Below, one piece after another: positions 14,821-23,335 of a stretch of DNA of 64,000 nt. A program made the position numbers and the translations under genes. The notes under the pieces are model-generated. The model made no database searches. It was not told where the DNA came from and saw only the letters and a program-made list of their open reading frames with translations. The stretch covers positions 267,521-331,520 of the forward strand of contig JAEUUF010000015.1 of NCBI GenBank assembly GCA_016787645.1, in the 5' to 3' direction. Numbering within the stretch: position 1 is the first letter of the stretch; the number at the start of each line of letters is the position of its first letter. The stretch is from Cyclobacteriaceae bacterium (GTDB lineage: Bacteria; Bacteroidota; Bacteroidia; Cytophagales; Cyclobacteriaceae).

Positions 14821-15261
14821 CTACTTACCGGCCTTCAACGCGGGCCAGTTCAGGTCCGCTTTTTCGATGTATCCTTTTTGATCCTGCATCCAGCGGGCCT
14901 TCACGTCCTGGTTGTAGTTGAAGTAGAGTTTGCCGTCGACGATGGTCCACGTATCGGCCTGGGTGGGCGAGAGGTGGCCGTCGGCGGTACCGTACGCGCA
15001 ATACCCGCCGTACTGGGGCGCGTACTGCTCCGGGTTGGCCTTGAAGGCTTCCAGGTTCTCAGCCGAGCTGAAGCACCACGTGGCCCCGTTCCATTCCGTG
15101 CTAAAATTCTTATCGCCTTTCACCGGCTTGCCTTCCTTGAAGAAACCAACCGCGTCATACCCGTCAATGGCGCCGTTGTCAGTGGTGTACACGGTGGAGG
15201 TCTTGGTGGTGCACGCGGCGACCAGCGAGACGAGGAGGAGGGAGAGGAGGAGTTTGTGCAT
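14821..15261 (-). CDS. YHS-domain lipoprotein
   Basis: Start taken at ATG 15261, which gives a clean lipoprotein leader (MHKLLLSLLLVSLVAACTTK). The 146-residue product carries a YHS-type domain: YDAVGFFKEGKPVKGDKNF, WCFSSAENLEAFKANPEQY and APQYGGYCAYG. YHS domains are short metal-associated modules, and secreted Bacteroidota versions of this kind are common and uncharacterised. It converges with the preceding predicted barrel gene with only 16 bp between stops. It marks the left, GC-normal border of the AT-rich array. Confidence 0.88.
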   Translation of the reverse strand: MHKLLLSLLLVSLVAACTTKTSTVYTTDNGAIDGYDAVGFFKEGKPVKGDKNFSTEWNGATWCFSSAENLEAFKANPEQYAPQYGGYCAYGTADGHLSPTQADTWTIVDGKLYFNYNQDVKARWMQDQKGYIEKADLNWPALKAGK

Positions 15262-15316
15262 GGGGGGTTGGGAGGTTATGTCAAATAAATAGAACACAGG
15301 GCATTATGCGCATCAA

Positions 15317-15338
15317 TTGTTGGCGGTAGTTTTTGCAT
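15317..15338 (-). repeat. Half-site of the array's palindromic element
   Basis: The plus-strand word attgttggcggtagtttttg matches the outer arm of the complete elements further right (for example atgttggcggtagtg at 20397-20411). It lies just beyond the stop of the first array gene and marks the left end of the AT-rich block. Confidence 0.55.
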
Positions 15339-15340
15339 CA

Positions 15341-16219
15341 CTACTTTCCTTTTTTAATCCGTCTTTGCTCTTTCATGGCAAACTTAATGTCCATGTCATA
15401 AATTCGGTGAAGAAGGAAGTCAAATTCGAGGCTTAACCGAAATTGTTCTTCAATTGGTTGTCCTTTTGATTGTATGATGTCCCACGGTCCGAGGTCTTTG
15501 ATTGCATTAAATACAGCATCCGCATACTCCGGCTCTGAGTCGAGCTCTGTGTTTTCAACCGTTTTTATCTTTCCGTCTGGTCCGATTGTTACAATAAAGT
15601 CTTCCCACCAGTATCTACCGTCATCTGGTAATTTCTTCCATTTGAGTTTTCTTTTTACTGTTTTGTAAATCTTAAATAAAGGGTCATAATGACTGAATCT
15701 GTCAAGTTTATTTGGGTCGTCAATGTAGTTTCTGAAATCGTCTACTTTCGTAATCTTTCCTGAATCTATTTCAACATTATATTCCCTTTCATAAGAAGAA
15801 CCATATCCCATATGAATGTATCTTATTACTTTCCCATAAGGAGCTATCAACGTTCCGGAGTACCAATTCGCTAGGACTTTGCCTTGTACATATCTGTCAC
15901 CAAACATCTTAACAAGGTTGGCGTCTTTAATTTCCAAACCGCAAGAATTGTGACAACTCCTAATTCTCACAAGAAAAAGTTGTCCGTCTTCAATTTTCCA
16001 AATCGCCTGATAACCTCTCCAACAGGCCGTGGACCCGCAACCAACAAAGTCGGGCAGATCTCTCCGTCCCGTTAGTTCGAAATAGATTTCTAAAGGATTT
16101 GTAAATAGTCTTAGTGAGTCGTTCTTGTAAATCAGAACGTCACCTACTTGTCCAGTTGCTTGACCTTGTAAGAAAGTCCCAAAGAAAATTATTACCGTAA
16201 TTACGAATCTAACTTTCAT
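15341..16219 (-). CDS. Exported protein with TonB-C-like C-terminal domain
   Basis: The start at ATG 16219 opens a signal peptide (MKVRFVITVIIFFGTFLQGQA); the ATG six codons earlier is less likely. The 292-residue protein is AT-rich in codon use compared with genes to its left. Its C-terminus (FIVTIGPDGKIKTVE, then ALKDLGPW-like spacing and GQPIEEQFRLSLEF) resembles the TonB C-terminal fold seen in many Bacteroidota secreted proteins; the N-terminal ~190 residues with cysteines (GCGSTACW, RSCHNSCG) are not recognised. It is the last gene of the one-directional cassette-like array and is preceded by element E1. Confidence 0.65.
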   Translation of the reverse strand: MKVRFVITVIIFFGTFLQGQATGQVGDVLIYKNDSLRLFTNPLEIYFELTGRRDLPDFVGCGSTACWRGYQAIWKIEDGQLFLVRIRSCHNSCGLEIKDANLVKMFGDRYVQGKVLANWYSGTLIAPYGKVIRYIHMGYGSSYEREYNVEIDSGKITKVDDFRNYIDDPNKLDRFSHYDPLFKIYKTVKRKLKWKKLPDDGRYWWEDFIVTIGPDGKIKTVENTELDSEPEYADAVFNAIKDLGPWDIIQSKGQPIEEQFRLSLEFDFLLHRIYDMDIKFAMKEQRRIKKGK

Positions 16220-16230
16220 TGCAAAAATTA

Positions 16231-16410
16231 CCGCCAACGACCTGTGTATGCGCCGTGCCGGGCAGTAGGAGGGCTTGCTTAAGGCGCCGGTACAAGCCTG
16301 GCAAGCCCGACCAGCTGTGCACGTTCACACTGACCGTTGGGTAGAAACGAAGTTAGGTATTTATTTCAAGAGAGAGTGCCCGGTATGCTGCATAGACACT
16401 CTTGTCCCGT
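16231..16410 (-). repeat. Array element E1: ~110-bp imperfect palindrome with attC-like organisation, plus tail
   Basis: On the plus strand it opens with ccgccaacgacctgtgtatg and closes the main palindrome with cactgaccgttgggt near 16342. The ends pair (CCAACG / CGTTGG), and an inner pair lies around ggcttgctt and caagcc. On the left arm it shares with E2 the words cgacctgt-at-tg, gccgtgcc/gcgtgcc and aggaggcttg. It is followed by a tail, aaacgaagtta--tatttattt, also present in E3. The outer boxes resemble the 7-bp ends of integron attC sites (GTTGGGT fits GTTRRRY), but the opposite end is not canonical. Confidence 0.65.
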
Positions 16411-16432
16411 TCGGTAATAATCAAAAAGCCAA

Positions 16433-17095
16433 TCACTTAATTTCAACCAGTACTAAATATATTTTGCCTTCTCCAACTGCTGTGAAGTAAAATGAACTCT
16501 GTGGCTCTATATACAAGTGGCCACCCTTTTTAATTTCCTTGGTCTTTTTGGTCTTCTGATCATGAACTAAGATTTGATCGCCTTCAACAAGTTGCGCAAT
16601 AATGGGCCCACGTTTGCTGATAACCTTTTGATCCAATGAAGAATTGCGCAAGCCATAAGCCAATACCTTCTCATTCTCAAGCAGTACATCAACCGGCAAT
16701 GGTTTGATTGGGCGGCCATTGGTGTAGGAATTCAAAATCTCCATATCCGTAACATGAAAAGGAACTGTGTCGCAATTGGTTACTCGATGAATGAGTGTAT
16801 CATTTAGGAAAGAAGTGTACCATGAATCGCCGGCAACATTTTGTGCTATCGCCCAGTCCTTTCCTGCTATTTGTGCTCCTACTGTGGTGCTGGTGAATAT
16901 GAGAAAGAAAGATGGGGTAGCATGAATGTGAAACAAGGAGGTGTCGCCAGGAGCAATATGAACATCCAAAAGCCGTAGGTATTTATTTTCGAAAACATTT
17001 TTATGCCTGGGTTCATTTCTCACCGGCACTTGAGCATTCGACATTGACGGAATCATTAATAACGCTAATAGAAAAAACCCTCTTCTGTCGTTCAT
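16433..17095 (-). CDS. Secreted cupin-like protein
   Basis: The 220-residue product has a signal peptide (RRGFFLLALLMIPSMSNAQ). The next part has a cupin character: FENKYLRLLDVHIAPGDTSLFHIHATPSFFLIF contains the metal-type HxH spacing, and a second cupin-like stretch lies near the C-terminus (GGHLYIEPQSSFYF). Cupins are beta-barrel folds that often bind metals and small acids; the substrate here is not predictable. It belongs to the cassette-like array, with E1 directly downstream and a degenerate element upstream. Confidence 0.65.
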   Translation of the reverse strand: MNDRRGFFLLALLMIPSMSNAQVPVRNEPRHKNVFENKYLRLLDVHIAPGDTSLFHIHATPSFFLIFTSTTVGAQIAGKDWAIAQNVAGDSWYTSFLNDTLIHRVTNCDTVPFHVTDMEILNSYTNGRPIKPLPVDVLLENEKVLAYGLRNSSLDQKVISKRGPIIAQLVEGDQILVHDQKTKKTKEIKKGGHLYIEPQSSFYFTAVGEGKIYLVLVEIK

Positions 17096-17114
17096 TAGTT
17101 ACATTTTCTTTATG

Positions 17115-17140
17115 CCTTGTTGGCAGTTGTTTTTCCACGC
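17115..17140 (-). repeat. Degenerate half-element of the array
   Basis: The plus-strand word ccttgttggcagttgttttt matches the outer arm of the complete elements (GTTGGCAGT in E2 and E3) and lies between two array genes where a full element would be expected. Its partner arm is lost or too degraded to see. Confidence 0.45.
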
Positions 17141-17204
17141 CACTCTAATTCCGACCTCCTTTTTCAGAGTCCGATCGGATAACCAAAAAATCGCAGTTAG
17201 TTTA

Positions 17205-17699
17205 CTATCTGGTAATGCCGACTTTACCAGTATTTTTATTGTAATTAGATTCTGATAATATTTCATTACCAAGATCGTTCTTACTTTTGAAATAAAATCT
17301 TACAATTAATTCACTTTGATCATTGAAATAGATATCTCCAACCGAGTCTTCAATAAAATCAAAAGTTAACCCATTCTTTAGGTTAAGACTTATCATATAT
17401 TTTGTCATTAATACAGCTCCATTTACTTGAGAATACAAATACGCTGCAGCAGGGTCAGATATTTTTCTTTTGGCAAGATTAGTTTTTAAAAAAACTGTAT
17501 CAGTCAAAAACATTTTATAACTATCTGATAACTTAATCTTACTTAGAGTCTCCTTTGTAATTGAAAAATTTGCTTTTCTCGTTTGGTGTACGCCATTCTC
17601 TACTTCCGTGTAAAACATCTCATTTTCGATTTTAATGTTTTGCGAGTACGCTGAAACATTGAAAAGAATTGTGAATGTCAAAAGGATTGTTTTCTTCAT
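17205..17699 (-). CDS. Exported hypothetical protein of the array
   Basis: The 164-residue AT-rich gene product has a clear signal peptide (MKKTILLTFTILFNVSAYSQ) and then a beta-rich region with no motif I recognise (NGVHQTRKANFSITKETLSK; LNLKNGLTFDFIEDSVGD). It has no cysteine pairs, no repeats and no membrane segment after the signal. Codon use is strongly AT-biased, unlike the flanking housekeeping genes. It lies in the middle of the one-directional array. Confidence 0.55.
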   Translation of the reverse strand: MKKTILLTFTILFNVSAYSQNIKIENEMFYTEVENGVHQTRKANFSITKETLSKIKLSDSYKMFLTDTVFLKTNLAKRKISDPAAAYLYSQVNGAVLMTKYMISLNLKNGLTFDFIEDSVGDIYFNDQSELIVRFYFKSKNDLGNEILSESNYNKNTGKVGITR

Positions 17700-17789
17700 G
17701 AATCTATTCTGTTTATTAAATTCTGCTTTGAACTTCCCACGTACATTGGCTTTGTTAGACCAAATAATGTTTAGTATGAATTATTTATT

Positions 17790-18206
17790 CTAATTTAAGG
17801 TATTTAACAAATAGAAAACTCCATCAATTTCCTTTTGGTATGTTTCAATTGGAGGAGTAGGGAAAATAATATCCGGAAGCGGCAATTGGTTTTTGGCATA
17901 TGCATATGCCTCGTTCAGACCTGAGATAGCATCCTTATAACATTCATAGATGCTTTCTCTCGCTTTAATTTTATTCACGGGTATTTCATAAACTGACACT
18001 GCAGTAAGAACTTCATGCTCTTTTCTATCATAAAATTCGACAAGGATAAACTTCTTAGTAATTATCAGTTTCAGCTTGTTGTTGACAATAAATGGAGGTT
18101 CAGTTTTGAAATCAATCTTTGACTCGCCGGGGCCTGTGATAGCTGGAAAATCCAAGGCAGATAAATCATATTTTGTTCTGTATTGTCTTGCATTCATATC
18201 ATACAA
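17790..18206 (-). CDS. Hypothetical cytoplasmic protein of the array
   Basis: The 138-residue AT-rich gene product (MYDMNARQYRTKYDLSALDF) has no signal peptide and no membrane helix. The start could also be the Met at codon 4. The middle is basic and hydrophobic in alternation (NNKLKLIITKKFILVEFYD), suggesting a beta sheet, and the C-terminal half is helical. I do not recognise the family. Element E2 follows its start on the upstream side, as expected for one gene per cassette. Confidence 0.5.
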   Translation of the reverse strand: MYDMNARQYRTKYDLSALDFPAITGPGESKIDFKTEPPFIVNNKLKLIITKKFILVEFYDRKEHEVLTAVSVYEIPVNKIKARESIYECYKDAISGLNEAYAYAKNQLPLPDIIFPTPPIETYQKEIDGVFYLLNTLN

Positions 18207-18243
18207 TTTTTTTAAGATTTTCAGGAGTCGTGGCCAAGAATTG

Positions 18244-18345
18244 TCGCGAACGACCTGTATATGAGGCGTGCCAGGTCTAGGAGGCTTGTTAAAAACGCAG
18301 GAACAAGCCCGACTGGTGCGCGCTATCCCTGGTGTTGGCAGTCGT
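18244..18345 (-). repeat. Array element E2: ~100-bp imperfect palindrome
   Basis: The plus strand reads from tcgcgaacgacctgtatatg to ctggtgttggcagtcg. Terminal boxes are gcgaac / gttggc. An inner stem is formed by ggaggcttgtt and aacaagccc around a 12-bp loop. It shares the left arm with E1 (cgacctgt, gcgtgcc, aggaggcttg) and the right arm with E3 (gttggcag). It lies 2 bp beyond the stop of the HEPN-like gene. Confidence 0.65.
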
Positions 18346-18347
18346 GC

Positions 18348-19034
18348 TCAGACTCTACTTTTGAATTCATCCCGAGTCCATTCATCTCTCAATTTTTGTG
18401 TATAGACGTTCTTCTCAAAGCGAATACCACTCTCTATTCGCCGCAATAGTGACACTGAACCGGCAATACTGTTTGTATATTCAAATGCAACCGTAGAGTC
18501 TAAATACTTCGCAGAAATGCTGTTATACAAAGCATGTATCCTTCGCAGAATGCTTTCCAACTTGTCCCTCGTTGCTGGTTTTAGAGGTTCTGCACTTTGA
18601 GGATTTGAAACCAATTCATAATCCATATGTGCTATCCATCTGTTTCTCCAGTCTCGACAGAATTCTGATTCCTTAAGAATCTCCTTAAGGGAAGCTTCAA
18701 TTTTGATCCTAAACTCATTATCCGCAACTAATGGGCAAATGGATTTTAAGGTGATGTTCTTTTTTCCGTTGGTCGTTGGGGGGTCAGTAATTCTTGCAAC
18801 CCCAAGCAGCAAATTATCCCATAGAACTCTCTGAACAATATAGAAAAACAAGGAGGCAGCTTCATTCATTAGATCTATACGTGATTCCTTTGATCCGTAT
18901 AATTCTTTGAACTCTGTCCATTTGTAGGTGATCCAGACAATTTCATTGTAAAGTGAATAGAGTAGAGAACCGAACTCTGGTCCAAGTTTGCGAATCATTT
19001 CTGCCTTTACCTCTTCTGTTGTTTGTGTCGCCAT
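18348..19034 (-). CDS. HEPN-fold protein resembling AbiU2
   Basis: The 228-residue cytoplasmic, helix-rich protein carries YNEIVWITYKWTEFKELYG, then a conserved-looking segment LLLGVARITDPPTTNGKKN and a HEPN-type motif R130-N-R-W-I-A-H136 in FCRDWRNRWIAHMDYEL. HEPN domains with an R-x4-6-H motif are often RNases in abortive infection and toxin-antitoxin systems, and the AbiU2-like family has this layout. I call it by motif and overall resemblance, not by a search. No antitoxin partner is adjacent: its neighbours are separated by palindromic elements, so it may act alone as a cassette. Confidence 0.55.
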   Translation of the reverse strand: MATQTTEEVKAEMIRKLGPEFGSLLYSLYNEIVWITYKWTEFKELYGSKESRIDLMNEAASLFFYIVQRVLWDNLLLGVARITDPPTTNGKKNITLKSICPLVADNEFRIKIEASLKEILKESEFCRDWRNRWIAHMDYELVSNPQSAEPLKPATRDKLESILRRIHALYNSISAKYLDSTVAFEYTNSIAGSVSLLRRIESGIRFEKNVYTQKLRDEWTRDEFKSRV

Positions 19035-19262
19035 CTTGATTCAGAGCATGACTGCTAACGTTGTATATACTGCCATAATGCAGCATATGTCCTTATGATC
19101 AGGGTTCAAAAAGCCAACCAAGAGGGCTGATAACACTGAAAATTCATGAACCGTTGTTTGCTTGAAACCCAGCGTCGTTTAGTCGCTCTCGTTCCCCATC
19201 AGAACCAATATAGTTACTTTTTGATTGAAGTCCGATGAGCTTATGCCATCGCATTATGTCCG
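19035..19262. other. Non-coding array spacer with a degraded palindromic element
   Basis: About 230 bp without a credible gene. Near its left end the plus-strand word actgctaacgttgtatatac corresponds to the outer arm of the elements (GTTAGCAGT on the minus strand). The rest contains short inverted words (ataatgcagcat; gccatcgcattatg) but no full copy of E1-E3. Confidence 0.4.
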
Positions 19263-19380
19263 CCTACTGCCTCCACCGATACAACTCCGCCTCCGCCGCA
19301 ATAAACCCAAACGCGCAAAGTGCTTGCCGGTGCCCACTTGCTCAAAGATCGGCTTCGCCTTCGCGGAGTCGCCGTTGTAA
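19263..19380 (-). pseudogene. Fragment duplicating the 3' end of the TPR lipoprotein gene
   Basis: This 118-bp piece matches 20813-20930, the last ~38 codons plus stop of the TPR lipoprotein gene, at roughly nine bases in ten, with one single-base deletion that breaks the frame. It has no start and no upstream part of the gene. It lies 14 bp from the stop of the next array gene, so two array genes sit between direct copies of one gene end. Confidence 0.85.
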
Positions 19381-19394
19381 TAGGTAATAGAGGC

Positions 19395-20252
19395 CTACAC
19401 CGCCACTTCGCTTTTTTTGACTTTGGTTACTATTCCTACACCCAACCAATACAATAAAAGAAAGGGTATTCCTGGAATAAAGAATAGAAATAGAATTTCA
19501 AAGCCCTTCGGAATGTTCATTTGAGTAATATAAATGACAATGGCTGAGGCAAGGCCAACTAAACTAAATAGGATCGTCAATATCGGACTCCAGAGTTTGA
19601 TATGTTGTAAGCGGTATAGTTGTATGGAGAGCCATATCACTAATGAGAAATGAATGAGCCGTCCCACTGCTACAATAGTAATGACAGTCAGGTTGTCATA
19701 AGATTTGCCGAATTCTTCTGCATGGTTTCCATGGTCAATCCATTCTTTTAATGCCTCTGGGTACAAATAGTGATGCGTGAACTCCCAAATAGATTCCACG
19801 AAAGCAAGAATAAAAAGCAAGGTCATTATCAACCTCGCCACATTTTTTATTTCCAATGAATTCCTCTTCAATAAAACCAGGGGGAAGGTTCCAAAAAGTA
19901 GCGCGGCCAGGAAGAGAAAAATATACCGTAAATGTTCACGTTCGGGATGCTCAAGCATTTTTATACTGAGGTCAGGCGCTGCGGCTAAACCGGTTATTCC
20001 GATAATAGGACAAATCAGTAGAAAAAGTAATAGTCCGCTAACTAATAAACTGCCGAATGACTGTTTGTAATACTTTGAAACGGCCAAGGCAACAACAACA
20101 AAAACCAATGAAATAGCCGTCCAAATTATTACATAAGTCTTAAAGCTGTTCGAGTCAACATAAGGCGAATATTGGCCAATCGGAATTCCAACCAAAAAGG
20201 GGAGTATGACTAAAATGAGAGTCGTAAGAGTTAGCAATATTTTCTTTGTCAT
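19395..20252 (-). CDS. Multi-pass membrane protein of the array
   Basis: The 285-residue hydrophobic protein has about eight predicted membrane helices (for example TLTTLILVILPFLVGIPIG, IIWTAISLVFVVVALAV, FFIPGIPFLLLYWLGVGIV). No catalytic motif or transporter signature is visible. The start ATG 20252 is preceded by element E3. Its stop lies next to the duplicated gene-end fragment. AT-rich like the other array genes. Function unknown. Confidence 0.6.
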   Translation of the reverse strand: MTKKILLTLTTLILVILPFLVGIPIGQYSPYVDSNSFKTYVIIWTAISLVFVVVALAVSKYYKQSFGSLLVSGLLLFLLICPIIGITGLAAAPDLSIKMLEHPEREHLRYIFLFLAALLFGTFPLVLLKRNSLEIKNVARLIMTLLFILAFVESIWEFTHHYLYPEALKEWIDHGNHAEEFGKSYDNLTVITIVAVGRLIHFSLVIWLSIQLYRLQHIKLWSPILTILFSLVGLASAIVIYITQMNIPKGFEILFLFFIPGIPFLLLYWLGVGIVTKVKKSEVAV

Positions 20253-20300
20253 TTTAAGTTGTTCGATGTCCTGAGTTAATTATGGGGTGTTACTGAAATC

Positions 20301-20408
20301 ACTGCCAACGATCAGTGTATGCACACTGATCATCGAGTCGAAACGAAGTTAACTATTTATTTGACGAGCGAATTCCAGGTATGATGTCATCTAGAATGTT
20401 GGCGGTAG
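20301..20408 (-). repeat. Array element E3: ~105-bp imperfect palindrome
   Basis: The plus strand reads from actgccaacgatcagtgtat to tagaatgttggcggtagtg; terminal boxes GCCAAC / GTTGGC pair perfectly. The left part has a separate near-perfect palindrome (gatcagtgtatgcacactgatc). The middle carries aaacgaagttaactatttattt, matching the E1 tail. The element lies between two membrane-protein genes of the array. Confidence 0.65.
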
Positions 20409-20426
20409 TGCATTCCGATGAATAGG

Positions 20427-20729
20427 TTACCAAACAAGTGGCCAATTATCCTTTTCAAGATGTAGCGCTATACCTACATAGATCAAGTAACCAGTGAGAA
20501 TTGTCAGAGTTATGAAGCGAGTCTTGTTGGCCTTATAGATTCTGCAAACAATTGCGTAGACCAAACTAGAAAAGGCTGTAAGGATTGGTGGCCAGAATAG
20601 ATTTATTAAGCCCCCAAGCTCATAATGGCTCATATCAACTGTAGTAGCCAGCGACCAACAAATAAATCCTGCCAATAGGATAATCATTATTCCTGTACTA
20701 ATACTCGGGGTATTCTCTCTAGATGTCAC
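20427..20729 (-). CDS. Small membrane protein of the array
   Basis: The 100-residue product has three predicted helices (IMIILLAGFICWSLATTV; LFWPPILTAFSSLVYAIV; ITLTILTGYLIYVGIAL) and no other feature. Upstream on the minus strand lies another half-element (GTTGGCGGTAATGC, around 20745-20758), so this gene fits the pattern of one ORF per element. Family not recognised. Confidence 0.5.
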   Translation of the reverse strand: MTSRENTPSISTGIMIILLAGFICWSLATTVDMSHYELGGLINLFWPPILTAFSSLVYAIVCRIYKANKTRFITLTILTGYLIYVGIALHLEKDNWPLVW

Positions 20730-20813
20730 AAATATTCAGTTATTTGATTAGCATTACCGCCAACATCTTTATGTCCAGCGCATCAAATCTCGTAACTCGG
20801 CATTGATTATTTC

Positions 20814-21743
20814 CTACTCCCTCCACCGATACAACTCCGCCTCCGCCGCAATAAAACCAAACGCGCCAAAGTGCTTTCCGGCAACCACTTCCTCAAAGAT
20901 CGCCTTCGCCTTCGCGGAGTCGCCGTTGTACAGATACCAGTTGCCCACACCGTACCCCTGCGTGGCGAGGGATAAGTCGCGCTGCTCGGGGTCGGCGTCA
21001 GCGACGTGAAGAACCGAGTCGGGAGATAGTTTGCCCTGGTACATCAGGCAGCGCTTGTAATATGAGTCGTTCTCGATGATCTTCATGCCCTCGTGCACGT
21101 TGCCCACGATAGACTGCGCCAGCTCGGTCTTGCCCTGTCGCCGGTAAGTCATGTACATCCAGTCAACACAAGCCACCATCAAATCATCGTTGTCGCAGGT
21201 CTTCAGGCATTCAATATAAGCCTGCTCCGCCTTCGCGAAGTCGCCCTTGAGGTAGTAGGCGAGCGCAAGGTGATAGCGGATGTTGAACTGCAGCGTGGAG
21301 AGCGGTGTGTTGATCGCGTTGGGAATACCATCGGGTTCGATTTCAAGCGGAAAGCCAGCTGCCAACTGGTGCGCCTGCTCGAGGTCATCGATGGCGCGGT
21401 CAAACAGCCGCATGGAAATGTAACGATGTCCGCGGTGGCGATACAACTTGGCGCTCTTCGGGAATTTCTGGATGCCCTCCGTCAGGACATCCACGGCTTC
21501 CTGGTAACGCGAGAGATAACCGAGGCGTCGCCCGTACCAGATGTAGTTCTCTTCCGAAGGATCTGCCTCCCAGTTCGCTTTGGCAACGCGCAGGTTGCTG
21601 TCCAGCCGCGCCTGCACTTTGGCGGAACGGCTCGGCTCATAATAGGCTTTTCCCAGCAGGGAAATCACCACCGGGCTTTTCTTCTGCTCACCTGTCCCGC
21701 AGGCGGTGACAACTAACAAGAGGGCGAAGACCAGTCGATGCAT
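20814..21743 (-). CDS. TPR-repeat lipoprotein
   Basis: The 309-residue product starts with a lipoprotein signal (MHRLVFALLLVVTACGTG). Tetratricopeptide repeats are visible across residues 60-290, e.g. YLSRYQEAVDVLTEGIQKFP, SAKLYRHRGHRYISMRLFD and YLKGDFAKAEQAYIECL. TPRs mediate protein binding; the partner is not known. Base composition returns to the chromosomal norm here. Its final 118 bp are duplicated at 19263-19380. It lies 8 bp downstream of the amidohydrolase stop, so the two probably form an operon. Confidence 0.85.
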   Translation of the reverse strand: MHRLVFALLLVVTACGTGEQKKSPVVISLLGKAYYEPSRSAKVQARLDSNLRVAKANWEADPSEENYIWYGRRLGYLSRYQEAVDVLTEGIQKFPKSAKLYRHRGHRYISMRLFDRAIDDLEQAHQLAAGFPLEIEPDGIPNAINTPLSTLQFNIRYHLALAYYLKGDFAKAEQAYIECLKTCDNDDLMVACVDWMYMTYRRQGKTELAQSIVGNVHEGMKIIENDSYYKRCLMYQGKLSPDSVLHVADADPEQRDLSLATQGYGVGNWYLYNGDSAKAKAIFEEVVAGKHFGAFGFIAAEAELYRWRE

Positions 21744-21751
21744 AGGATGAG

Positions 21752-23335
21752 TTAGTTCATGCCCGGCTGTTTCAGGACGAAGCCGGCTTTGGTTTTTTCC
21801 GCATCAACGATCTTCTTCACGTCGGCGAGCAGCTTCTTCGCGTCATAGATGATACCATCTTTAACCGTGTAACTAATTCCGCCCACACGCTTCACGGTAT
21901 TATCGTCCATTAATTTGATCGCGCCCACACCGTATAGCACCTGCAGGTTTTCCAAAGGGTTCTGATCCACGATAACAAAGTCGGCCAGCTTGCCAATTTC
22001 AACGGAGCCAATTTCTTTTTCCATGCCGATTGCCTGCGCGCCATAAAGTGTCGCTGAACGGATTACTTCGAGGGGATGGAAGCCCGCCTCACGCAGCAGT
22101 TCCAGTTCGCGGATGTAGCCGAAGCCGTACAGCTGGAAGATAAAGGCGTTGTCTGAACCGGCGGTAACGCGACCGCCGCGGTTTTTGTATTCGTTCACGA
22201 AGGTCATCCAAAGACGGAAGTTTTCTTTCCAAGCCACCTCTTGTTCGGTTCCCCACGAGAACCAATACGATCCGTGCGCGATGCGGCTGGGTTGGTAGAA
22301 GGCCCAGAGTTTCGGCAACGTGTACATTTCATGCCACTCCTGGCGGCGGGCGCGGTGCAGATCGCGCGATGCTTCATAGGTGTCGAAGGTCGGGTCGAGC
22401 GTGAAATCCATCTTCAGCAAGGTGTCCATCACCGCGTTCCACTTGGGTGTAAATGGTGCCGCTGCTTGTTTCCAGAGACGACCGGCTTCTTCAAAACGAT
22501 TCTGTTCGTTGGAATAATTATAGTTGAGGGGATAGTTCTGCAGCGTTGAACTGGTCAGCATGGCCTCCGGCAAACCATACCAGTGTTCCATCGTGGTGAG
22601 ACCGGCGGCAGCTGATTGCACCACATTCCAGCGGGCCACACCGAGTTGCGCATGGTGACAAGCGCTGCGGAGGCCGAGGCGCTTGTTCTCGCGGAGCGCG
22701 GCGTCCATGACTTCGGGTGAAGCCCCAAAAAACTTGATGCCGTCGGCGCCTTTCATTTTGTTTTCATTCACCCATGCTTTTGCCTGCTCGGCATTGCGAA
22801 TCGGTTCCTTGGCACCTGAACCGAACGTCACGTAAGCTTTGATGCGGGGCGCGGTGATCAGGTTTTGTTCGCTTTTCTTTTTCTCATCGAGTACCCAGTC
22901 GATCCCGTTGCCGGAACCGGGCTCTCGGATGGTGGTGATACCGTGAGCCATCCAGAGTTTAAAGACATACTCCGCATCAGGGGCCTGGCCGCCGCCTATA
23001 TGTCCGTGCATATCCACAAAGCCAGGGAGGAGGTACATGCCTTCGCAGTTGAGTTCCTTTCCACCAGGTTCCAGCTTGATGCGATTGGACGAACTGGCCA
23101 TGCCGGGTGTAGGAAGGCCGAGGCTGGCGATGTTCACGATGCGATTTTGTTTGACGACGATATCGACCGGGCCCACGGGGGGCGCTCCGGTTCCGTCGAT
23201 CAGCATGACGCCGCGGATGATGAGCTGGGTATAGGGTCCGTCACCCTCCTTTACTTCGGGTGCTTTTTTTACTGCATCCTGCGCGCCGACGCGGAACGCC
23301 AGGGTCAGCAGGGTGACAACGATTATTTTTTTCAT
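21752..23335 (-). CDS. Secreted amidohydrolase-family protein
   Basis: The 527-residue enzyme has a signal peptide (MKKIIVVTLLTLAFRVGAQ) and the amidohydrolase (imidazolonepropionase/dihydroorotase-like) fold. Metal ligands are visible: H110 and H112 in GFVDMHGHIGG, further histidines in ACHHAQLG and TTMEHWYG, and the late Asp in TAGSDNAF. The N-terminal beta-sandwich (RGVMLIDGTGAPPVGPVDIVV) and the C-terminal GKLADFVIVDQNPLENL are typical. The substrate is unknown; secreted members often cleave cyclic amides or dipeptides. It is followed by the TPR lipoprotein. Confidence 0.9.
   Translation of the reverse strand: MKKIIVVTLLTLAFRVGAQDAVKKAPEVKEGDGPYTQLIIRGVMLIDGTGAPPVGPVDIVVKQNRIVNIASLGLPTPGMASSSNRIKLEPGGKELNCEGMYLLPGFVDMHGHIGGGQAPDAEYVFKLWMAHGITTIREPGSGNGIDWVLDEKKKSEQNLITAPRIKAYVTFGSGAKEPIRNAEQAKAWVNENKMKGADGIKFFGASPEVMDAALRENKRLGLRSACHHAQLGVARWNVVQSAAAGLTTMEHWYGLPEAMLTSSTLQNYPLNYNYSNEQNRFEEAGRLWKQAAAPFTPKWNAVMDTLLKMDFTLDPTFDTYEASRDLHRARRQEWHEMYTLPKLWAFYQPSRIAHGSYWFSWGTEQEVAWKENFRLWMTFVNEYKNRGGRVTAGSDNAFIFQLYGFGYIRELELLREAGFHPLEVIRSATLYGAQAIGMEKEIGSVEIGKLADFVIVDQNPLENLQVLYGVGAIKLMDDNTVKRVGGISYTVKDGIIYDAKKLLADVKKIVDAEKTKAGFVLKQPGMN

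Follow-up and report, generated by a model that had tools for sequence, protein, structure and literature searches.

A block at about 15.3-20.8 kb of a 64,000-nt stretch of Cyclobacteriaceae bacterium DNA is very probably the decayed remnant of a cassette array that lacks an integrase and belongs to an integron-like system of Bacteroidota, whose tyrosine recombinase is not an IntI. The stretch, hereafter the window, comprises positions 267,521 to 331,520 of the forward strand of contig JAEUUF010000015.1 (GenBank assembly GCA_016787645.1; contig C5 below). The block holds seven open reading frames (ORFs) on the minus strand, three palindromic elements carrying common words (E1, E2 and E3) and halves of further elements, and its G+C content is 0.394, versus 0.564 and 0.543 in the flanks. 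The ORFs, the elements and the AT-rich composition had been noted in a preliminary description, whose observation we confirm. That description interpreted the block as integron cassettes with attC-like sites, and our results support this as right in essence: this type of cassette closes on its own ends, has a fixed polarity and a site that folds better on the bottom strand, and is linked to a tyrosine recombinase, both in the source genome and in relatives. The array is not a canonical integron, and the recombinase is not an IntI.

Each closed cassette in the window (A, B and C in the table) starts, in the minus-strand direction, with GTT and variable bases and ends with the reverse complement of its own start, so that it can close into a circle. 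All three pairs of ends carry an A/G difference at position 11, and a fourth pair, 20309/17119, matches at 12 of 14 positions with a difference at the same place. Scored by end pairing alone, without a hairpin requirement, the window contains four own-start/own-end pairs matching at 12 or more of 13 positions, whereas 200 shuffles average 0.155 and never exceed 2, and in a table of five starts by five ends the own partner is the best match for all four pairs. The outer box had been given as GCCAAC/GTTGGC; its GTT/AAC is constant, but the bases that follow vary by cassette and match the cassette's own other end. E1 folds better on the plus strand, the bottom strand of the array, than on the minus strand (-26.8 vs -22.1 kcal/mol), and both E1 and E3 (z -2.53 on the plus and -3.06 on the minus strand) fold better than most shuffles.

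Intact elements of the same type are found elsewhere in the genome. With E1 as a DNA query, contigs C24 and C14 yielded four relatives, 138-165 nt long and 76-78% identical, and the E1 matches in 9 of 147 other genomes of the family span just 27-51 nt. Compared with the C24/C14 elements, E1 is 75-77% identical over 166-185 nt and E3 77-83% over 78-91 nt; BLAST aligns E2 with E1 over 77 nt and with one C24 element over 42 nt. On C24, the gene for a 380-aa tyrosine recombinase (L039:6964-8106) is followed on the same strand by cassettes, seven by eye and five by the strict detector described below, with intact elements of about 165 nt. The C24 and C14 ends have exactly 92 nt in common and C14 carries cassettes that are of the same kind by eye (the detector reports two closures there and two further matches that are likely to be chance). 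C24 and C14 therefore probably carry one array. A tyrosine integrase near larger arrays, which the preliminary description had proposed to look for, was thus found on C24 and in relatives, but it lacks the IntI-specific insertion that was expected of it.

Two other candidates were rejected. The 309-aa recombinase of C14 lies more than 10 kb from the C14 cassettes on the opposite strand and was discarded as the array integrase; the same contig carries a lone attC-like element (L040 8244-8475, G000:C14) about 8 kb from the cassettes, with BLAST matches to E1 and E3. The outer box TACCGCCAACR was tried as a marker and gave 15 matches in the source genome versus 7 for a reversed control. Four of the 15 are in the array and the other 11 have no surrounding element by eye, which shows that the outer box alone is not diagnostic.

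Among 291 genomes of the order, 122 encode relatives of the C24 recombinase (E <= 1e-40). We surveyed 99 recombinase loci, made up of L071-L089 (19) and L090-L169 (80, among the matches listed), for self-closing cassettes. The detector looks for GTT plus 7 nt that recur as their reverse complement 200-3500 nt on, tolerating a single mismatch among the 10 positions, and for a hairpin behind this repeat that extends to the next GTT, and it scores each locus by its longest run of linked cassettes. Controls were upstream DNA, shuffles, permuted ends and canonical arrays; the reverse strand is uninformative as a control because closure is symmetric under reverse complementation. Bacteroidota loci, assigned by record or kinship, gave runs of at least three in 17 and runs of two in 4 of the 33 cases with at least 3 kb behind the integrase. 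L074, with less than 3 kb, also had a run of three; L109 was counted as Bacteroidota but has less than 3 kb and falls outside the 33. Among 28 other loci there was no run of three or more and one run of two (L155). Ahead of the integrase, a run (of three) was found in L159 only, a Calditrichia locus with a canonical IntI, whose array is expected to be divergent; the other four IntI loci have 0-2.4 kb of DNA ahead of the integrase. Five shuffles per locus yielded runs of 0 or 1, and a run of 2 once. In the window array this strict detector, which requires a hairpin, has zero matches because the window hairpins are damaged.

Elements related to those of the window are therefore present near other genes in related genomes. 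Array hosts include Algibacter onchidii, Flavobacterium enshiense, Aequorivita sinensis, Seonamhaeicola aphaedonensis, Winogradskyella ursingii, Arundinibacter roseus and Bacteroidetes metagenome genomes. Taking the 18 loci with runs of at least three among L071-L169 together with L039 gives 19 array loci, and in 12 of them the first junction is 40-157 nt behind the integrase stop (an unlinked closure in L083, L098 and L131); the stop is unclear in 2. The candidate attI sites directly before the first junction of L090, L091, L094, L098 and L114 look nearly palindromic by eye (as with GATAAACGCAATTGCGTTTATC in L094), and CAATT or CACTT stands between them and the GTT. Several draft contigs end 0.05-2 kb behind the integrase (L042, L074, L077, L082, L085, L089, L092, L093, L100, L101 and L107), as repeated array sites would cause, and draft-genome surveys may consequently miss arrays.

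The 19 array loci contain 113 linked cassettes, 109 of them distinct after four with identical first 20 nt were dropped. Since positions 1-10 and the hairpin score were themselves selected for, only positions 11-14, the strand bias and the ORF direction count as independent. Cassette starts match their own ends at positions 12, 13 and 14 in 86, 87 and 71% of cases, versus 52, 41 and 34% with permuted ends. At position 11, 107 of 109 starts have an A, with C opposite in 84, and only 2% match their own end; from position 15 onward pairing is at background level. Over positions 12-14, own ends match at 2.44 of 3 positions and the ends of adjacent cassettes at 1.23; for the 10-position ends, which are partly selected, the corresponding figures are 9.0 and 4.27. 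GTT is constant by selection, position 4 is G or A in 108 of 109, and the inner boxes have A after AAC in 109 of 109 and C before GTT in 95. Positions 5-7 are not restricted to R, R and Y as in an R box of the form RYYYAAC/GTTRRRY, so that the misfit of the outer boxes to GTTRRRY, already seen in the window, stands and is regular for this type of site.

The sites range from about 60 to 276 nt, most commonly 120-129 nt (51 sites), and their bottom strand is the more stable in 104 of 109 closed sites (mean difference -4.0 kcal/mol), versus 34 of 109 control segments from cassette bodies. In the site arms (2498 pairs), the top strand has A opposite C 194 times and C opposite A 29 times, and A opposite C on the top strand means G.T pairs on the bottom strand. 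The cassette strand carries the longest ATG ORF in 104 of 109 cassettes. This ORF reaches at least 60 aa in 95, where it begins a median of 34 nt past the junction, and in 13 neither strand attains 50 aa. The arrays thus consist of mostly single-gene cassettes in one orientation, each followed by an attC-like site, and cassette G+C is below that of upstream DNA in 16 of 19 loci. The 95 cassette proteins matched 45 Pfam families at 1e-4; among the matches listed (25 families), 23 families occur in one member each, PF00144 (a serine-hydrolase fold, named beta-lactamase) in three and GNAT in two. Compared with PADLOC models, 43 matched, with one member each among the matches listed (25).

We applied the same detector beside canonical IntI genes, in 12 regions longer than 2.5 kb out of 20 and in L159. 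Runs of at least three were recovered in 5 of these 13 regions, the longest of 12, which shows that the detector finds real integrons and that the Bacteroidota type differs in its end stem. In 36 distinct canonical cassettes, position 11 matches its own end in 64%, and positions 12, 13 and 14 match in 36, 28 and 17% versus 25, 21 and 25% with permuted ends, with no excess pairing at 13-14. The bottom strand is the better one in 31 of 36 (mean -2.21 kcal/mol). The Bacteroidota arrays therefore resemble canonical integrons in their tandem one-gene cassettes, GTT/AAC junctions, own-end matching, AACA...CGTT inner boxes, better-folding bottom strand, candidate insertion site beside the integrase gene and mostly low cassette G+C. 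They differ in that the integrase gene is co-directional with the array, the box after GTTR is not RRY, and end pairing extends over 14 nt, broken at position 11 by a mismatched A. Their recombinase lacks the IntI insertion, falls outside the IntI group and has 85-399 residues ahead of the core (16 array recombinases measured).

Pfam assigns the C24 recombinase a phage-integrase catalytic domain and a SAM-like domain, and the nearest solved structures by sequence are IntI4 (2a3v, 1.6e-36), then XerA (5hxy, 4a8e) and XerD. The spacer between R264 and H323 (C24 numbering) is 58-63 aa in 16 of 19 array recombinases, those that were measured, versus 100 aa in five of five canonical IntIs, and none of the 16 has the IntI-specific insertion; in this segment IntI4 is 43 residues longer than the C24 protein. 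Relatives without arrays likewise lack the insertion, with a spacer of 56-67 in complete ones. Seven array recombinases score 188-215 bits with TIGR02249 (cut-off 265), versus 457 and 487 bits for two IntI controls. The best protein model is the XerA model NF040815 (cut-off 220), which the same proteins match at 196-230 bits, with three of seven passing. Part of the family carries the NCBI product name 'site-specific tyrosine recombinase/integron integrase'. No genome of the 291 of the order passes the TIGR02249 cut-off (at most 7 candidates per genome, among the matches listed; search controls gave no signal), and the model is positive in 56 of 143 genomes of another class. On contig C5 it has no match at E 0.001, in line with the earlier remark that no integrase is in view at the array.

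In a tree of 88 rows, which covers 16 of the 19 array loci (the integrases of L076, L090 and L091, for which ORF calling yielded fragments, were left out), the five IntIs form one group (100/100) and the 16 array recombinases lie outside it, mixed with array-less relatives; two XerC/D-like proteins of the source genome branch elsewhere. In a reduced tree, placing IntI and the array recombinases together in one clade is not rejected (p-AU 0.127). XerA and archaeal tyrosine recombinases (NF040815; PDB 4a8e, 5hxy) are close by best model, but the three archaeal relatives, L135, L136 and L146, have no linked downstream array (runs of 0, 0 and 1) and only 1-31 residues ahead of the core. The N-terminal region has sub-threshold similarity to HARP (PF07443, SMARCAL1-type annealing helicases) in 4 of 19 members of set A1 (best E 0.0017) and in two of nine further proteins (1.3e-4 and 1.9e-4; L077 and L087), neither of which has an array of three in view. 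A HARP origin was set aside as suggestive only: the scores are below the Pfam cut-off, the array recombinases scanned (C24, L102, L113, L129, L137) have no match, and a profile search of the PDB did not find HARP.

Recombinase relatives were found on 66 plasmid records, of which eight cover at least 80% of the query, all from Bacteroidota. The longest runs in six plasmid records were 1 in Persicobacter plasmid 4, 2 in Rufibacter, and 1 each in Pontibacter, Persicobacter plasmid 1 and C. oryzae; the Chryseobacterium SNU WT5 plasmid has a run of 3 but also matches upstream, and is unconvincing. The two linked cassettes of Rufibacter tibetensis plasmid 1 (L228, 13463-14806) lie behind the recombinase relative, show the position-11 difference and may represent a mobile form. 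Acinetobacter accounts for 49 of the 66 records; among the matches listed (five), these cover only residues 145-377 of the query, like a TnpF-annotated record, and are perhaps a transposon-borne branch. A search of phages with the recombinase gave no match at 1e-50.

Cassettes appear to have moved in relatives of the C24 array. In L081 one cassette occurs twice, the copies agreeing (at most 3 mismatches) for 785 nt, from 2 nt before GTT to 9 nt past the next GTT, and both the preceding element and the following cassette differ between the copies. L081 and its sister L083 are 83-87% identical through the flank and the integrase, and the alignment stops at the first GTT (L081 6177, L083 6125). 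Behind it, what they share is limited to differently placed stretches of about 400-530 nt that surround a recurrent cassette poor in ORFs. Such cassettes, about 400 nt long and alike in their body, are repeated in L081 (7528-7932, 11950-12351, 13023-13425 and 18281-18681) and also occur in L083; they are possibly promoter or non-coding cassettes.

The surroundings of the window array were compared with two of six congener stretches. In G569, relatives of genes 21752-23335, 20814-21743 and 14821-15297 (putatively labelled amidohydrolase, TPR and YHS from a reading of the sequences rather than a family search) are consecutive and free of cassettes, 56 nt separating the last two, and the flanking proteins are 70 and 63% identical to those of the window; the same place in the source genome is occupied by the 5.4-kb array. 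The gene order with its spacers is thus not conserved among relatives. In G572 the neighbour is a different gene. The empty G569 site and the shortened sites of the window point to a detached, decaying, integrase-less remnant, and loss of the array in G569 is a possible alternative history. The array could have been placed there by the integrase acting on a secondary site, or by a rearrangement. E1, E2 and E3 have the arrangement of a cluster of attC sites lacking an integrase (CALIN), defined in the available text of PMC9668308 by at least two attC sites less than 4 kb apart and no integrase nearby, with sites that are of the new type and damaged. An Rfam scan of the array block found no family at its gathering score. 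The features of the block are listed in the table, with the borders of E1-E3 revised from those first given. Of the earlier gene labels, only HEPN/AbiU2 is borne out by Pfam; the ORFs called TonB-C-like and cupin-like have no Pfam match at E 0.1.

Table 1. Features of the cassette array in the window (window coordinates)
Feature	Position	Strand	Remarks
5' half of cassette A attC-like element, remainder missing	15274..15321	-	By-eye comparison with intact elements; this array end adjoins gene 14821-15297
Closed cassette A	15319..16238	-	Starts GTTGGCGGTAATTTTTGC at 16238, own reverse complement at 15319; 13/14, only position 11 (A/G) differs; inverted repeat I2 (19 nt, 95%)
Cassette A ORF	15341-16237	-	298 aa; no Pfam match at E 0.1
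E1, attC-like element	16236..16411	-	About 176 nt; distal AAC box degraded (G after AAC, not A); end 16409 pairs with none of five starts tested
ORF of cassette preceding E1	16433..17095	-	220 aa; start junction not recognisable
Cassette end box	17119..17132	-	Partner is start 20309 (12/14); inverted repeat I18; element behind box lost
ORFs 17205-17699 and 17790-18206, downstream of E2	17205..18206	-	No family above Pfam cut-off
E2, attC-like element	18249..18336	-	88 nt, shortened; direct repeat D3; start box 18251 unpaired
Closed cassette B	18334..19059	-	12/14, positions 4 and 11 differ; HEPN/AbiU2 ORF 18348-19034 (PF18734, 1.6e-20)
Partial second copy, 3' end of flanking gene 20814-21743	19263..19379	-	Versus 20813-20930, 84-95% identity, repeats D1 and D5
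Membrane-protein ORF	19395..20252	-	Start junction 20309; Pfam matches sub-threshold only
E3, attC-like element	20307..20400	-	94 nt; internal deletion (by eye) versus intact elements
Closed cassette C	20398..20764	-	13/14, only position 11 (A/G) differs; inverted repeat I7; membrane ORF 20427-20729

Several results weigh against reading the window as a remnant of such a system. The window sites are damaged, start 18251 and end 16409 have no partner in the window, and at a laxer threshold of 11/13 the excess of closed pairs is weak (6 pairs versus a mean of 2.36 and a maximum of 6 in 100 shuffles). E2 folds at -17.8 (plus) and -16.5 kcal/mol (minus), no better than shuffles (29 and 30 of 200 as good), and E3 shows no strand preference, its strands being about equal (-17.4 on the plus and -17.8 kcal/mol on the minus strand). 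In the survey, the detector thresholds were fixed after inspection of the first loci, and some of the 113 linked matches look like chance, with A/T-rich starts such as GTTTTTATT in L072. The one shuffled run of 2 arose for L083, whose real run is 3; 16 of the 33 Bacteroidota relatives have no run of three, 12 of these not even two, and 5 of the 19 array loci have their first junction as far as 266-955 nt behind the integrase. Nor are the array recombinases monophyletic in the reduced tree (3 changes, with 12 of 16 grouped at 99/97). Finally, cassette excision and integration are themselves inferred from sequence.

These points bear in part on four other explanations. The cassettes and sites could be real and the adjacent recombinase a bystander, with another enzyme acting on them: proximity is correlational, the loci were chosen by their recombinase gene, and half of the relatives have no array. 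We consider this unlikely given the short distance of the first junction from the recombinase stop in most array loci, the lack of such arrays in all 28 non-Bacteroidota relatives picked in the same way, and the separate branching of the two XerC/D-like proteins of the source genome. It is more improbable still that the window is a canonical integron or CALIN with unusual attC sites, its IntI lost or on an unassembled contig. Overall layout and polarity are the same, canonical arrays look similar in the same detector, and integrons have been reported in Bacteroidota in the available text of PMC8618304 and PMC9024848, but the IntI model is passed in none of the 291 genomes (at most 7 candidates per genome, among the matches listed) while finding its targets elsewhere, a recombinase lacking the IntI insertion heads all 16 array loci measured, and the end design differs at positions 11 and 13-14.

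Units with terminal inverted repeats, miniature inverted-repeat transposable element (MITE)-like or other, combined with a nearby hairpin, an unrelated transposase and a chance pile-up would account for the imperfect 14-nt terminal repeats and hairpins, and insertion sequence (IS) elements are annotated near three of the six plasmid relatives. This hardly fits units that stand head to tail, share one GTT junction, have a tyrosine recombinase at their head and pair better with their own ends than with adjacent ones, at the unselected positions as well as the partly selected ones, and we give it very little credence. Nearly negligible, in our judgement, is the case for ordinary intergenic repeats (terminators or repetitive extragenic palindrome (REP)-like sequences) between vertically inherited genes. 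Palindromes between co-directional genes without an Rfam family would suit it, but it is contradicted by the closure statistics, by the absence of the array between the same two genes in G569, by repeats that match across genes and by arrays of sister species that diverge from an exact junction.

A degraded array of a non-IntI system accordingly remains our explanation, and from the evidence above we infer the recombination itself, the strand used and the roles of the recombinase and its N-terminal region. A cassette would consist of one gene and one attC-like hairpin site, starting with GTTR, six or seven variable bases, A at position 11 and three more paired bases, all of this the reverse complement of its end, and would close into a circle through its matching ends. 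A tyrosine recombinase of XerA-like lineage, lacking the IntI insertion and carrying additional N-terminal sequence, would bind the folded bottom strand of the site and exchange strands beside GTT, and cassettes would be inserted at a site behind the recombinase's own gene, yielding arrays co-directional with the integrase gene. The source genome has the integrase and the larger array on C24/C14, with the window array elsewhere, between genes that are adjacent in a congener; as its sites are shortened, it is probably inactive or served in trans.

In the 'reverse' integrons of Spirochaetota (Treponema), too, integrase gene and cassettes point the same way, but these have IntI, a distinction made here by description and not by sequence. 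A 'reverse' integron orientation is mentioned in the available text of PMC9668308, whose integron criteria require the IntI-specific domain. In the literature searched, no title or abstract describes arrays like those found here; the search left out preprints and most subscription papers, and an earlier description is possible. The Bacteroidota system appears to work like an integron, yet its recombinase lacks the IntI domain and stands outside the IntI clade, and its sites lack the R box. We lean modestly towards the broader view that Bacteroidota tyrosine recombinases without the IntI insertion run integrons of their own by exchange of folded single strands, recognising a 14-nt end stem with a position-11 mismatch, perhaps through the N-terminal region; the hairpin mechanism would then have arisen repeatedly, or IntI would be a specialised branch of an older guild.

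The system appears to use a recombinase lineage other than that of known integrons, and usual search criteria may miss such arrays. Whether the IntI-specific domain is needed to recombine folded single-stranded sites becomes a testable question. With recombinase relatives on Bacteroidota plasmids and cassettes on that of Rufibacter, a mobile form may exist. If the arrays are active, the IntI-domain criteria given in the available text of PMC9668308 would exclude an integron-like platform for gene capture in a major phylum.

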